DNA of 64,000 nt. It comes from Microbulbifer guangxiensis (GTDB lineage: Bacteria > Pseudomonadota > Gammaproteobacteria > Pseudomonadales > Cellvibrionaceae). Of the stretch, positions 17,210-43,860 are shown one piece after another. The position numbers were made by a program, and so were the translations under genes. Each line of letters opens with the position of its first letter. The first letter of the stretch is position 1. The notes under the pieces were generated by a model that saw only the letters and a program-made list of their open reading frames with translations, was not told the DNA's origin and did no database searches. The stretch covers positions 124,001-188,000 of the forward strand of contig NZ_JAJSAQ010000006.1 of NCBI RefSeq assembly GCF_021729075.1, written 5' to 3'.

Positions 17210-18889
17210 ATGTACTCCCATCATTTCTATCTCCGTCCAGCCTCCCGATACTACCGGCTAGCCAGTCCCGTTTTAGCCCTCCTACTCCTGAGCGGCTGCG
17301 GCGCTGAAGAGGGCGATGCCCGCCAAGCACTAACCGACAGCGCTCTTCCCTCACCTGACCCTCGCCAGGAATTGGTCATCGGCAACTACGCCGAACCCAC
17401 CTCTCTGGACCCGCATTTCGTTGCCGGTTTCACGGATCTGGCCCCACTCAACGATCTATTGGAAGGCCTGGTTCTACATGGTGCCGATGGAAAACTGATC
17501 CCCGGGGTGGCGGAGCGTTGGGAATCGAGGGACTCGCGTAACTATACGTTTCACTTGAGGCGTAACGCCCGCTGGTCCAATGGCGAACCGGTGACCGCTG
17601 GAGACTTCGTCTACGCTTGGCGCCGCGCGGTGGATCCGGCCACAGGCTCAGGTTGTGCCGAAGCACTGGCGGATTCCGGGGTTGCCAACGCGACCGCGAT
17701 AATAGCTGGCGAACGCCCACCAGAGGCCCTGGGGATTCACGCGGCAGGTCCACACACAGTGGAAATTACTCTTGAGCAACCCCTGAGCTTCTTCACCAGC
17801 CTGCTGATTACTCCGTGCTACCTACCCCTATATGCCCCGGCAATCGAACAGCACGGGGAAGCATGGACGCGCCCGGGGCACTATATCGGCAATGGCGCCT
17901 TCACTCTTAGGGCATGGACAGTCAATGAATCACTGGTGCTCGCTCGTAGCCCGTCCTATCGGGCCGCAGAAGAAGTCGGCCTGCAACAGGTCAGATACCT
18001 GCCCATAGCCTCAACGCACGCTGAACTGCGTCGCTATCTGGCTGGCGAAATCGATATAACCTTCACAGCGCCATCCGAGCACCTCGACAGTCTACGCACC
18101 GAGCGATCGGGCGAGCTACTCGAACTGCTGGAACCAATGACCTTCGGGATAGAAATCAACCAGGGTAAGCCACCATTCGATAACAAGGATCTACGTCGTG
18201 CGTTGGCGCTCGCGCTCGACCGAGAGCTACTGGTAGACAAGGTACTCCAGATCGGTGAACCCGCTTATCACCTCACGCCTGTTGCGATTCGCATAGATGC
18301 CAACATTGATCCTTCTTGGGCAAGCCAAACACAGGCCGAACGTGAGGCATTAGCCCGGGAACTCTATAACCGCGCTGGCTATTCCCGGGAAAATCCGTTG
18401 CGCTTTCGCATCTTCCATAAAAACAACGACAATACCCACAAGATGCTCCTCGCCGCAGCCGCCATGTGGAGACAGGTACTCGGCGCCGAGGCGAGCGTAC
18501 AGGGCTTTGAGCTAAAAAGCCTGGTTCCCTTGGTACAGGAGGGAAACTATGATCTGGCCACTCGCGGACGCACAGCTGTTTATCCTGATTCATCCGCCAC
18601 CCTGTCGGGGATGCGCAGCGGCACTCCCTACGCCAACGGCTATGCGAACCCGGCCGTCGACGACCTACTCGATCAGGCCCGGGCAGAGCTGGACCCACAC
18701 CTCCGCATGCAGTTGTATGCTCGCGTCGAGCAGTTACTCGCCGAAGACATGCCCTTCATACCCCTCTATAACCGGGGTGTTGCCAGACTGATTAAACCCC
18801 ATGTTATGGGCTACCGTCCCAGCCCACTGGGCTACCGCTATAGCAGGGATTTGGCAATTCAAACGGACGTGCAGCCGCCATTGGAATAG
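17210..18889 (+). CDS. OppA-type oligopeptide-binding lipoprotein 1 of 13
   Basis: This is the first of a tandem family of SBP_bac_5 (OppA/DppA) solute-binding proteins. Each captures a ligand in the periplasm and delivers it to the OppBCDF channel encoded after the array. The 559-residue product has a lipobox LLSGC (Cys30), the family start NYAEPTSLDPH (59-69), the ring motif NARWSNGEPVTAGDFVYAWRR and the C-terminal LIKPHVMGY. Compared with E. coli OppA, the residue aligned with Asp419, which anchors the peptide amino group, is Val457. Cys149 and Cys203 form a possible extra disulfide shared by copies 1, 2, 3, 5 and 6. It is closest to copy 2. Confidence 0.93.
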   Translation: MYSHHFYLRPASRYYRLASPVLALLLLSGCGAEEGDARQALTDSALPSPDPRQELVIGNYAEPTSLDPHFVAGFTDLAPLNDLLEGLVLHGADGKLIPGVAERWESRDSRNYTFHLRRNARWSNGEPVTAGDFVYAWRRAVDPATGSGCAEALADSGVANATAIIAGERPPEALGIHAAGPHTVEITLEQPLSFFTSLLITPCYLPLYAPAIEQHGEAWTRPGHYIGNGAFTLRAWTVNESLVLARSPSYRAAEEVGLQQVRYLPIASTHAELRRYLAGEIDITFTAPSEHLDSLRTERSGELLELLEPMTFGIEINQGKPPFDNKDLRRALALALDRELLVDKVLQIGEPAYHLTPVAIRIDANIDPSWASQTQAEREALARELYNRAGYSRENPLRFRIFHKNNDNTHKMLLAAAAMWRQVLGAEASVQGFELKSLVPLVQEGNYDLATRGRTAVYPDSSATLSGMRSGTPYANGYANPAVDDLLDQARAELDPHLRMQLYARVEQLLAEDMPFIPLYNRGVARLIKPHVMGYRPSPLGYRYSRDLAIQTDVQPPLE

Positions 18890-19053
18890 CAATTGGCGAC
18901 ATAAAAGTTTTTTGGAAGTGCCTTTCGCAGAGGAATTGCGGGTGCTCCATGATGAGCAGCTTGAATGGCAACCCGAAATGGCGGCAAAAGCCACACCTGA
19001 TGACCTCACCCGCCCACGAACCCTCGCTGTCACTAAGCGCCAAAACCATCCCG
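18890..19053 (+). other. Spacer between binding-protein genes 1 and 2
   Basis: There is no convincing gene. A plus-strand frame crosses it (ending 19130) but has no ribosome site or family match. The promoter and leader of gene 2 follow. Confidence 0.4.
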
Positions 19054-19083
19054 TTGACATCAGGACAGAAGCATCTTTACGAT
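19054..19083 (+). promoter_or_regulatory. Promoter of binding-protein gene 2
   Basis: TTGACA, 18 bp and TACGAT, in the same geometry as the promoter of gene 1. Confidence 0.6.
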
Positions 19084-19110
19084 TCACTAATCCAAAGTAT
19101 TTGAAAAGTG

Positions 19111-41872: not shown

Positions 41873-41887
41873 AAGGAGGTTGTCCAG

Positions 41888-42865
41888 ATGGACCTGCTGG
41901 AAGTCAGAAACCTGCATGTACAGTTCGATACCCCTGACGGTACTGTCGTTGCGGTGAATGGGCTGAATTTCTCTATTGCCGCAGGTGAGACACTCGGTAT
42001 CGTCGGAGAGTCCGGTTCCGGCAAGAGCCAGACCGCCTTCTCCCTGCTGGGTCTACTGGCACGCAATGGCCGGGCATCAGGCAGTGCCCGCTTCGAAGGC
42101 AATGAGATCCTGAACCTCCCAGAAAAACAGCTGAACCAGATCCGTGCGCGAGCGATCGCAATGATCTTCCAGGATCCGATGACCTCTCTGAACCCCTACC
42201 GCAAAATCGGACCACAGCTATACGAGGTGCTGGTGCACCATATGGGCAATACCCAAAAAGAGGCGCGTATCCAAGCACTGGCGATGCTTGATGCTGTGAA
42301 GATTCCCGAAGCAAAAAAGCGCCTGGAGAGCTACCCGCACGAACTCTCTGGCGGCATGCGCCAGCGCGTGATGATTGCCATGGCCCTGCTCTGCCAGCCG
42401 AAACTGCTGATTGCAGACGAGCCGACCACCGCGCTGGACGTCACCGTGCAGGCGCAGATCCTCAAGTTGCTTGACGAGCTCAAGCGGGAATTCAATACAG
42501 CCATCGTCCTCATCACCCATGACCTGGGGGTAGTGGCAGGTCTGTGCGACAGGGTGCTGGTGATGTACGCAGGGCGAACCATGGAGTATGGACCGGTGGA
42601 GGACATTTTCTACCGGGCCAGCCACCCATATACCCGCGGCTTACTACATGCGGTGCCCCGCCTCGACAGCCCCGGGGCAACGCTGGCGACGATACCGGGA
42701 AATCCCCCGAATCTGCTACAACTGCCACCGGGTTGCCCATTCTGGCAACGCTGCACATCAGCCACCGAGCAGTGTCAGGCTGAGGCGCCTCCACTGCGAC
42801 CGATCGGAGACAACCGCCTGCGCGCCTGTCACCTGGAGATTCCTGAACTTTCGGAGGTGGTGTGA
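41888..42865 (+). CDS. oppD: Oligopeptide transporter ATPase OppD
   Basis: This is a 325-residue ABC ATPase with Walker [10 protein letters not shown] (residues 39-47), signature LSGGMRQRV, Walker [13 protein letters not shown] and the C-terminal oligopeptide-transporter extension with four cysteines (CPFWQRC...C...C) that in OppD/DppD relatives binds an iron-sulfur cluster. The ribosome site AAGGAGG is perfect. The Walker A Gln in place of the usual Thr/Ser after Lys-Ser is common in OppD. Confidence 0.96.
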
Positions 42866-43860
42866 TGAACATGCCTGCCGATGCCGAGCCTCTCCTCGAC
42901 GTTTCTGACCTCACGGTGCAGTTCGAGATCAAGAGACAGGGCGCCCTGCCCTGGCGTGGATCAGACTCCCTGAAGGCTGTTGATAGGGTCAACTTGCAGC
43001 TGCACGCGTGCGAAACGCTGGGAGTAGTAGGAGAGTCGGGCTGCGGCAAGTCCACACTTGCACGCGCATTGATGGGGCTCGTCAGCACAGCTGCGGGGCA
43101 CATAACCTGGCTCGGGAGGGACCTTCTGAGGCTTTCACCGGCAGAGCTGCGTCGCTCACGGCGAGACATGCAGATGATCTTTCAGGATCCCATCGCCTCC
43201 CTCAACCCACGGATGACCATCGGGAATAGCATAGCGGAGCCTTTACGCAGCCTTTGCCCGGAACTATCCAGGGATGAAATCCGGATGCGTGTCAAAGCGA
43301 TGATGGAGCGCGTGGGCCTGCTACCAAACCTCATCAATCGCTATCCGCATGAATTTTCCGGTGGACAGTGCCAGCGTATCGGGATTGCCCGCGCACTGAT
43401 TCTGGAGCCAAAGCTTGTGATCTGTGACGAGCCAGTATCGGCTTTGGACGTATCGATTCAGGCCCAGATAGTCAACCTTCTACAGGAGCTGCAGCGGGAG
43501 ATGGGTCTGGCACTGATATTCATCGCCCACGACCTTTCCGTAGTACGGCATATCGCCGACCAGGTTCTGGTGATGTACCTGGGCAATGTGGTGGAACATG
43601 GTGGTACCGAGTCCGTATTCAGCAATCCGCGTCACCCCTACACACGCGCGCTGTTGTCAGCAGTACCGGTGCCAGACCCGCAAGTCGAACGTACAAAAAA
43701 AATACAATTACTCGAAGGTGATCTGCCCTCCCCCATCAACCCACCAAGCGGTTGTGTCTTCCGGACTCGATGCCCGGAGGCCACAGAGCTCTGTGCAGAA
43801 CAGAAACCCAGCCTGGGGGCCTCCAACCCACATCGGGCCGCCTGTCTCTACCATCAGTGA
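42862..43860 (+). CDS. oppF: Oligopeptide transporter ATPase OppF
   Basis: This is the 332-residue second ATPase. Walker A is GESGCGKST, the signature [13 protein letters not shown], Walker [13 protein letters not shown], and the C-terminal cysteine cluster (CVFRTRC...C...C) matches that of OppD. It overlaps the oppD stop by 4 bp. The [16 protein letters not shown] region fits OppF rather than a second OppD. Confidence 0.95.

Follow-up and report, generated by a model that had tools for sequence, protein, structure and literature searches.

Thirteen tandem OppA-type receptor genes with a hypervariable ligand pocket adjoin a single oppBCDF set in Microbulbifer guangxiensis

Thirteen intact receptor genes precede one permease set

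The 64,000-nt window of the Microbulbifer guangxiensis genome analyzed here (the whole stretch studied, contig NZ_JAJSAQ010000006.1) carries 13 consecutive, stop-free genes for OppA-type receptors of the SBP_bac_5 family (S1–S13; 17210–39986), all on the plus strand and followed by a single oppBCDF permease set. The receptors share a conserved scaffold on which the ligand pocket is hypervariable, the set of receptors has turned over between this species and Microbulbifer sp. NKW57, and the array lies within an insertion at a tRNA gene. We consider it likely, with a probability of roughly 0.7, that the 13 receptors are membrane-anchored and deliver different ligands to one shared OppBCDF, as a lineage-specific panel with diverged pockets that was generated by tandem duplication. 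In the mechanism we propose, the panel would have arisen within the Microbulbifer lineage through repeated tandem duplication, after which the scaffold would have been retained and the residues of the ligand pocket would have diverged. Each receptor, expressed and lipid-anchored, would bind its own class of ligand, most likely differing short or modified peptides, and all of them would dock on one OppBC pair, with OppDF powering the import.

The listed open reading frames (ORFs) of S1–S13 are 550–588 amino acids (aa) long, and the SBP_bac_5 model is covered nearly end to end in all 13, the weakest match having an E value of 2.3e-67. The listed starts lie too early for S2, S4, S5, S8, and S10, and the distance to the lipobox places the likely starts at 19182, 22563, 24262, 29371, and 32811, respectively. 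The features of the array and the permease set are as follows, with the five receptors of NKW57 denoted as N1–N5.

17081..17196, +: leader 5′ of S1, 116 nt, with a 79% repeat at 19054–19169 before S2
17210..18889, +: S1, predicted OppA-type lipoprotein receptor; SBP_bac_5 match, lipobox pattern
19182..20897, +: S2, predicted OppA-type lipoprotein receptor; start by lipobox distance, 61% identity to S1
20894..22570, +: S3, predicted OppA-type lipoprotein receptor; groups with N1 of NKW57
22563..24230, +: S4, predicted OppA-type lipoprotein receptor; start by lipobox distance
24262..25896, +: S5, predicted OppA-type lipoprotein receptor; start by lipobox distance, groups with N2 and N3
25927..27582, +: S6, predicted OppA-type lipoprotein receptor; SBP_bac_5 match, lipobox pattern
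27722..29374, +: S7, predicted OppA-type lipoprotein receptor; SBP_bac_5 match, lipobox pattern
29371..31020, +: S8, predicted OppA-type lipoprotein receptor; start by lipobox distance, best match to the Pfam model
31063..32724, +: S9, predicted OppA-type lipoprotein receptor; longest branch in the tree
32811..34460, +: S10, predicted OppA-type lipoprotein receptor; start by lipobox distance
34457..36133, +: S11, predicted OppA-type lipoprotein receptor; counterpart decayed in NKW57
36426..38093, +: S12, predicted OppA-type lipoprotein receptor; SBP_bac_5 match, lipobox pattern
38295..39986, +: S13, predicted OppA-type lipoprotein receptor; groups with N4 and N5, structure predicted
40032..40955, +: OppB permease; NCBIfam OppB equivalog, 508 bits versus a cut-off of 388
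40961..41872, +: OppC permease; OppC_N match, the sole one in the genome
41888..42865, +: OppD ATPase; ABC_tran and oligo_HPY
42862..43860, +: OppF ATPase; ABC_tran and oligo_HPY

With the corrected starts, internal promoters could fit into the gaps of 292 nt (S1/S2), 139 nt (S6/S7), 292 nt (S11/S12), and 201 nt (S12/S13); the remaining neighbors are separated by at most 86 nt or overlap. Scans of 26500–44500 returned fewer hits than shuffled sequences for both promoters (2 versus 9.7) and terminators (9 versus 14.7) and are uninformative on transcription units. Since the leader is repeated before S1 and S2, the duplication that produced this pair, with a unit of approximately 1,972 nt, carried the upstream region as well. 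A lipobox-like cysteine (loose pattern) is present in all 13 receptors, and none of them has Asp at the +2 position. In E. coli, a residue other than Asp at +2 predicts sorting of a lipoprotein to the outer membrane, in which case a tether of 20-odd residues would have to extend as far as the inner membrane. Chance ORFs were rejected as an explanation of the array, and so were assembly repeats, as its members are only 32–61% identical pairwise.

The oppB gene begins 45 nt after S13 on the same strand, and its product is 66% identical to E. coli OppB. Across the assembly (3,652,630 bases in 9 contigs, completeness given as 100), the 13 SBP_bac_5 matches all fall within the array, and the one OppC_N match is the OppC of the same locus; dedicated permeases elsewhere for the receptor copies were thus rejected. 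An earlier note on this DNA had described 13 intact tandem SBP_bac_5 genes followed by one oppBCDF set, which the stop-free frames and the 13 family matches bear out. It had also proposed that a single importer is fed by a panel of receptors that differ in their ligands, a view that gains support from the sole OppC_N match, the lack of SBP_bac_5 matches outside the array in this genome, and the hypervariable pocket on its conserved scaffold. Permeases dedicated to most copies, named there beforehand as a finding that would speak against this view, were not found elsewhere in this genome with OppC_N.

The pocket varies on a conserved scaffold

The available part of PMC9967938 gives 13 ligand-site residues of OppA and pairs Asp419 with the α-amino group of the peptide; that of PMC5736914 places Asp419/Asp445 in the same role and reports that each of the five Borrelia receptors has Asp or Glu at this position. 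Since residue 445 of the E. coli OppA precursor is Asp, the OppA numbering could be fixed. For comparison, 23 OppAs of other genomes served as controls, the set being formed without G254a (the interrupted second copy of genome G254) and the more distant receptors L006–L008, L116, and L118, and overly gapped columns were removed. At the 13 published contact positions, the mean pairwise identity of the array receptors is 0.122, versus 0.411 elsewhere in the proteins, and that of the controls is 0.552 versus 0.464. None of 20,000 random column sets was as low as the array contact positions, of which 11 of 13 were evaluable. When pairs were matched at 36–40% overall identity, contact-position identity was 0.08 in the array (28 pairs) versus 0.48 in the controls (41 pairs). 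Repeating the test with three alignment methods, with a 19-position set, or without S1 and S9 gave the same result; no more than 3 of 20,000 random sets reached so low a value.

An unbiased scan of 507 columns, for which MbG001 (a near copy of MbG003) was additionally left out, ranked positions that are conserved in the 22 other OppAs and variable in the array. W416, N366, H161, R413, D419, W397, Y273, Y485, and Y365 came out on top, with Y274, H371, and Y109 also within the top 19. We take W397, Y274, and H371 to be pocket-lining residues of OppA. According to the docking table in the accessible text of PMC9967938, N366, H161, and Y485 touch ligands. D419, R413, and W416 are jointly kept in none of the 13 array receptors and none of the five in NKW57, versus 21 of the 23 other OppAs; three other Microbulbifer OppAs examined retain all three. 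R413 is lost throughout the array. Position 419 reads V, S, W, T, Q, H, D, D, G, D, D, D, and E in S1–S13, so that six receptors have Asp or Glu and seven have neither; of the 23 other OppAs, 22 have D there and one has E. A common scaffold bearing such different pockets suggests a panel of specialists, which would replace the usual single all-purpose receptor.

Receptor relationships, fold, and the nature of the ligands

Pairwise identities within the array range from 32 to 44%, except for S1/S2 at 61%, and S13 is 69–70% identical to N4 and N5. An alignment of S1–S13 with the five NKW57 receptors contains 43 invariant columns. These are spread along the length of the proteins, so the conserved start and end motifs of the earlier description hold loosely. 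In a phylogeny, a 99/99 branch separates all 18 array receptors from the 23 other OppAs. Within the array receptors, N1 groups with S3 (100/98), N2 and N3 with S5 (99/88), and N4 and N5 with S13 (100/100). As these groups occur in the same order along the DNA, the common ancestor of the two species probably had several of these receptor types, and genes have probably been gained and lost since.

A profile of the 18 array receptors finds OppA and MppA as the nearest solved relatives. The predicted model of S13 displays a complete OppA-like fold (predicted local distance difference test 87.4, predicted template modeling score 0.82), and a Foldseek search with it likewise places MppA and OppA nearest, while also listing NikA, AgaA, and receptors for sialic acid and glutathione. 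For S8, S9, and S13, the OppA model scores far above those of NikA, GsiB, and DppA. Against the NCBIfam OppA equivalog, these three of the 13 receptors reach 379–502 bits, below the cut-off of 947; a Vibrio OppA with canonical residues also falls short of it (739 bits), so this cut-off is uninformative here.

The strongest alternative keeps the same anatomy and supposes that the ligands are mostly not ordinary peptides and may instead be oligosaccharides, opines, metal chelates, glutathione-like molecules, or cyclic or blocked compounds. Since residues that bind the amine and carboxylate groups are lost (Arg413 in every receptor, and any Asp or Glu at 419 in seven), the ligand class would have changed, and the same-fold binders in the Foldseek list are in keeping with this. 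However, OppB passes its equivalog cut-off and is 66% identical to the E. coli protein, the array profile and the S13 model are closest to OppA and MppA, and S8, S9, and S13 prefer the OppA model. We regard non-peptide ligands as possible but doubtful and favor different peptides delivered to the shared OppBCDF.

Distribution in the genus and the class

Among 48 Microbulbifer genomes, SBP_bac_5 is present in 16, including that of M. guangxiensis, which alone has more than one match; the search for the array in related genomes that the earlier note had suggested thus gave 0 or 1 match in each of the remaining 47. A smaller array exists in Microbulbifer sp. NKW57, whose OppB is 94% identical and whose five SBP_bac_5 receptors, the complete genome-wide set, all lie upstream of oppB. 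Between N3 and N4, a decayed C-terminal S11-like piece (L004:6142–6525) occurs with no intact gene. The NKW57 locus belongs to the same permease lineage, and its receptors match S3, S5, and S13 in order, but it has eight fewer intact receptors, the S11-like remnant, and other flanks. In a comparison of 56 kb with the window, S13 plus oppBCDF and short receptor pieces align, and the flanks are unmatched. The five intact copies together with the remnant indicate that genes are both gained and lost as the array changes. Inactivation of copies in other strains, which the earlier note had also named as speaking against its reading, is therefore seen in part, as one decayed remnant beside five intact genes.

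In a permease tree built by a quick method, the systems of the window and NKW57 group with the three other Microbulbifer Opp systems compared (Shimodaira–Hasegawa-like approximate likelihood ratio test 96). From this placement, the array is best regarded as an expansion at the level of the genus, which has possibly moved between strains.

Profile searches of 369 genomes of the class and 390 of the order scored at most three candidates per genome and could not exclude long arrays; Pfam matches were therefore counted in 30 genomes, 17 from the class profile search and 13 from the order samples, some of the assemblies being fragmented. These 30 other genomes of the class have 1–13 SBP_bac_5 matches each, which are scattered, and the longest tandem run is two (coordinates read by eye). 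In 80 loci around OppB relatives, which span at most 10 kb per side and many of which are incomplete, the number of receptor ORFs is 0 in 12, 1 in 50, 2 in 10, 3 in 7, and 5 in the single locus of NKW57. The expectation that opp loci usually hold one or two binding proteins agrees with these genomes and loci.

Two-gene receptor tandems occur elsewhere in the class at loci L105 and L106 and in genomes G151, G179, G085, G176, G312, G330, G122, and G203. Upstream of oppA in G254 is a second OppA-type copy that looks interrupted, with its two parts approximately 1.1 kb apart (L102:12–2529).

Direction and tempo of receptor change

In two pairs of young duplicates among the array receptors, amino acid differences are concentrated in the pocket relative to the rest of the protein: N4/N5 (7/17 versus 70/495, p = 0.007) and S1/S2 (13/18 versus 175/493, p = 0.002). 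The excess is non-significant in N2/N3 (p = 0.17) and S11/S12 (p = 0.08), and the cross-species pairs S13/N4 (5/17 versus 145/495, p = 0.59) and S13/N5 (p = 0.51) have none. Seven control pairs, including two tandem duplicates (G661 and G244), show no pocket excess, with p values from 0.39 to 0.98. With a second position set derived from the scan, which is biased by construction for control pairs, N4/N5 alone is significant (p = 0.009; S1/S2, p = 0.27). Synonymous differences between N4 and N5 are distributed more unevenly over the gene than in any of 5,000 permutations and track the amino acid differences (r = 0.66). This unevenness is weaker in S1/S2 (p = 0.0098, r = 0.22) and non-significant in S13/N5 (p = 0.13, r = 0.41). 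The N4/N5 pattern, found mainly in this one gene pair, fits conversion tracts over the scaffold.

Rather speculatively, the array may constitute an evolving repertoire, in which copies arise by duplication, the scaffold is kept uniform through gene conversion, and pocket segments diverge or are exchanged. If this were true, one importer would gain many private specificities, a repertoire taking over from the generalist receptor, and, given the insertion at a tRNA site, whole panels might move between strains.

Relaxed constraint would provide a less eventful history, in which most copies are redundant, their pockets drift, and only one or two matter, the others being lost. The smaller membership and the decayed S11-like piece in NKW57 fit such a course, and lost ligand binding would likewise render conserved pocket columns variable. 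In opposition, all 13 frames are intact, 43 scaffold columns are invariant over 18 proteins, and the pocket of S13 is no more diverged from N4 and N5 than the remaining sequence. N4 and N5 themselves are under purifying selection, as indicated by a nonsynonymous divergence (dN) of 0.084 versus a synonymous divergence (dS) of 0.331. Relaxed constraint is thus an unlikely account, and we retain the reading of a panel of diverged receptors feeding one OppBCDF.

Several observations weigh against this panel reading. NKW57 has just five receptors; hence, a large panel is not essential in the lineage. Receptors are not alone in having changed between the two species: dN is 0.21–0.22 for S13 versus N4 and N5, but OppD (0.108) and OppF (0.150) have also diverged, compared with 0.035 for OppB and 0.042 for OppC. 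The pocket excess is significant in two of six array pairs with the literature set and in one of six with the second set, the p values being uncorrected for multiple tests, and synonymous sites are saturated between most pairs, so dS is no gauge of positive selection. Moreover, the random-column test ignores relatedness, the contact list is drawn from a summary in a single paper (PMC9967938, in its available part), and the higher conservation of the contact positions in the controls is not significant (87% of random sets lower, 13% higher).

Comparison with known multi-receptor systems

Borrelia burgdorferi possesses five lipid-modified paralogues (OppA1–A5), three of them in tandem, with one Opp system (PMC5736914, available text). 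Like the array receptors, they are derived from duplication, differ in the pocket, and serve one Opp system. In contrast, all five keep the docking Asp/Glu and a second permease pair is present, whereas the array has 13 receptors, seven with neither residue. The Ami permease of Streptococcus pneumoniae works with up to five SBP_bac_5 lipoproteins (AmiA and AliA–D) of differing peptide preference, as described in the accessible text of PMC11192437; it has fewer receptors than the array and a Gram-positive host. As expected of a multi-receptor Opp system, the genome with the array has a number of paralogous receptors but one permease that matches them. In Pseudomonas aeruginosa PA14, four of the receptors DppA1–A5 adjoin dppBCDF, with a metallo-dipeptidase gene nearby and differing substrates, according to the part of PMC4206461 at hand; this is a Dpp rather than an Opp system, with five receptors in total. 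The tripartite tricarboxylate transporter receptors of Rhodoplanes include a nine-gene tandem array, whose solute-binding proteins have diverged to mostly less than 50% identity, but they belong to another transporter family, the array is one part of 434 genes, and the available text of PMC5994714 does not tie it to one permease.

A permease with several receptors is therefore already known (five in Borrelia, up to five for Ami, five for PA14 Dpp), as is a nine-gene array of another family. What is new is how many receptors there are, that none of those found in the genome retains the canonical docking set, that their divergence centers on the pocket, and that the array sits in an insert at a tRNA gene. 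A literature search, with most subscription journals outside its scope, found no Opp array of this size and no paper on the locus. The earlier suggestion of an undescribed system needs qualification in view of the published shared-permease panels of up to five receptors and the nine-gene array. The locus bears on how one ATP-binding cassette permease accepts many receptors and why a generalist OppA would be traded for several diverged ones. One permease with 13 natural receptors, which combine a common scaffold with different pockets, offers a set for tying pocket changes to ligands, and the array is also a collection of natural peptide-receptor designs.

The array lies in an insert at a tRNA-Arg gene

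The boundaries and remaining contents of the insert are as follows.

16927..17002, +: tRNA-Arg (CCT), left insert boundary by empty-site comparison
17003..46397, no strand: insert with the array, oppBCDF, and a DUF885 gene; 29,395 nt, empty site in Microbulbifer G012
44437..46254, +: DUF885 protein within the insert; family match
46398..46413, +: att-like copy of the tRNA-Arg 3′ end, right boundary; 15/16 nt identical

In G012, the counterparts of window positions 17002 and 46398 are joined directly, which identifies 17003–46397 as an insert. When the insert region is compared with the 20-mer of the tRNA end, the highest match, 16/20, falls at the right boundary, the next best being 14. G004, the other of the two relatives compared, holds different DNA of approximately 7.4 kb at this gene. 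Judged from these alignments, tRNA-Arg (CCT) is an insertion site in Microbulbifer, with 29.4 kb here, approximately 7.4 kb of other DNA in G004, and no insert in G012. No integrase was found: all insert ORFs of at least 220 aa gave only solute-binding protein, Opp, and DUF885 matches, the smaller ORFs being mostly unscanned. Four further or antisense insert ORFs and one across the right edge have no family match. A search of plasmid records with OppB matched 4,081 records, the 15 matches listed being from Aeromonas, Proteus, and E. coli.

An arms race, in which receptors diversify to avoid or hijack peptide toxins or signals entering via Opp and variety itself is selected, could draw on the receptor turnover between two species with 94% OppB identity, on the pocket as the site of change, and on an insertion at a tRNA gene that holds other DNA in a relative. 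By itself, however, it gives no reason for keeping 13 receptors together, and we regard it as improbable. Least probable of all are sensing or surface roles instead of import: the lipobox-like cysteines without Asp at +2 would, by the E. coli rule, place the receptors in the outer membrane, away from the permease, but oppBCDF follows the receptor genes after 45 nt in the same orientation, no regulator or kinase appears among the insert ORFs scanned, and Borrelia and pneumococcus are known, from the available texts on those systems, to have lipoproteins as receptors of Opp permeases.

A functional link between DUF885 and peptide uptake is possible but weak, since no DUF885 gene was seen beside the NKW57 opp genes and all 48 genomes of the genus contain this common family. 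DUF885 also precedes oppA in G362 (L111:3974–5614), a different genus, which is one of 24 loci compared.

Rfam at gathering thresholds detected five tRNAs and nothing else. A tRNA-Val/tRNA-Asp pair is present twice, at 4501–4701 and 5964–6164, approximately 1.46 kb apart, and an LpxR-family outer membrane protein is encoded downstream of the insert at 53019–54077.

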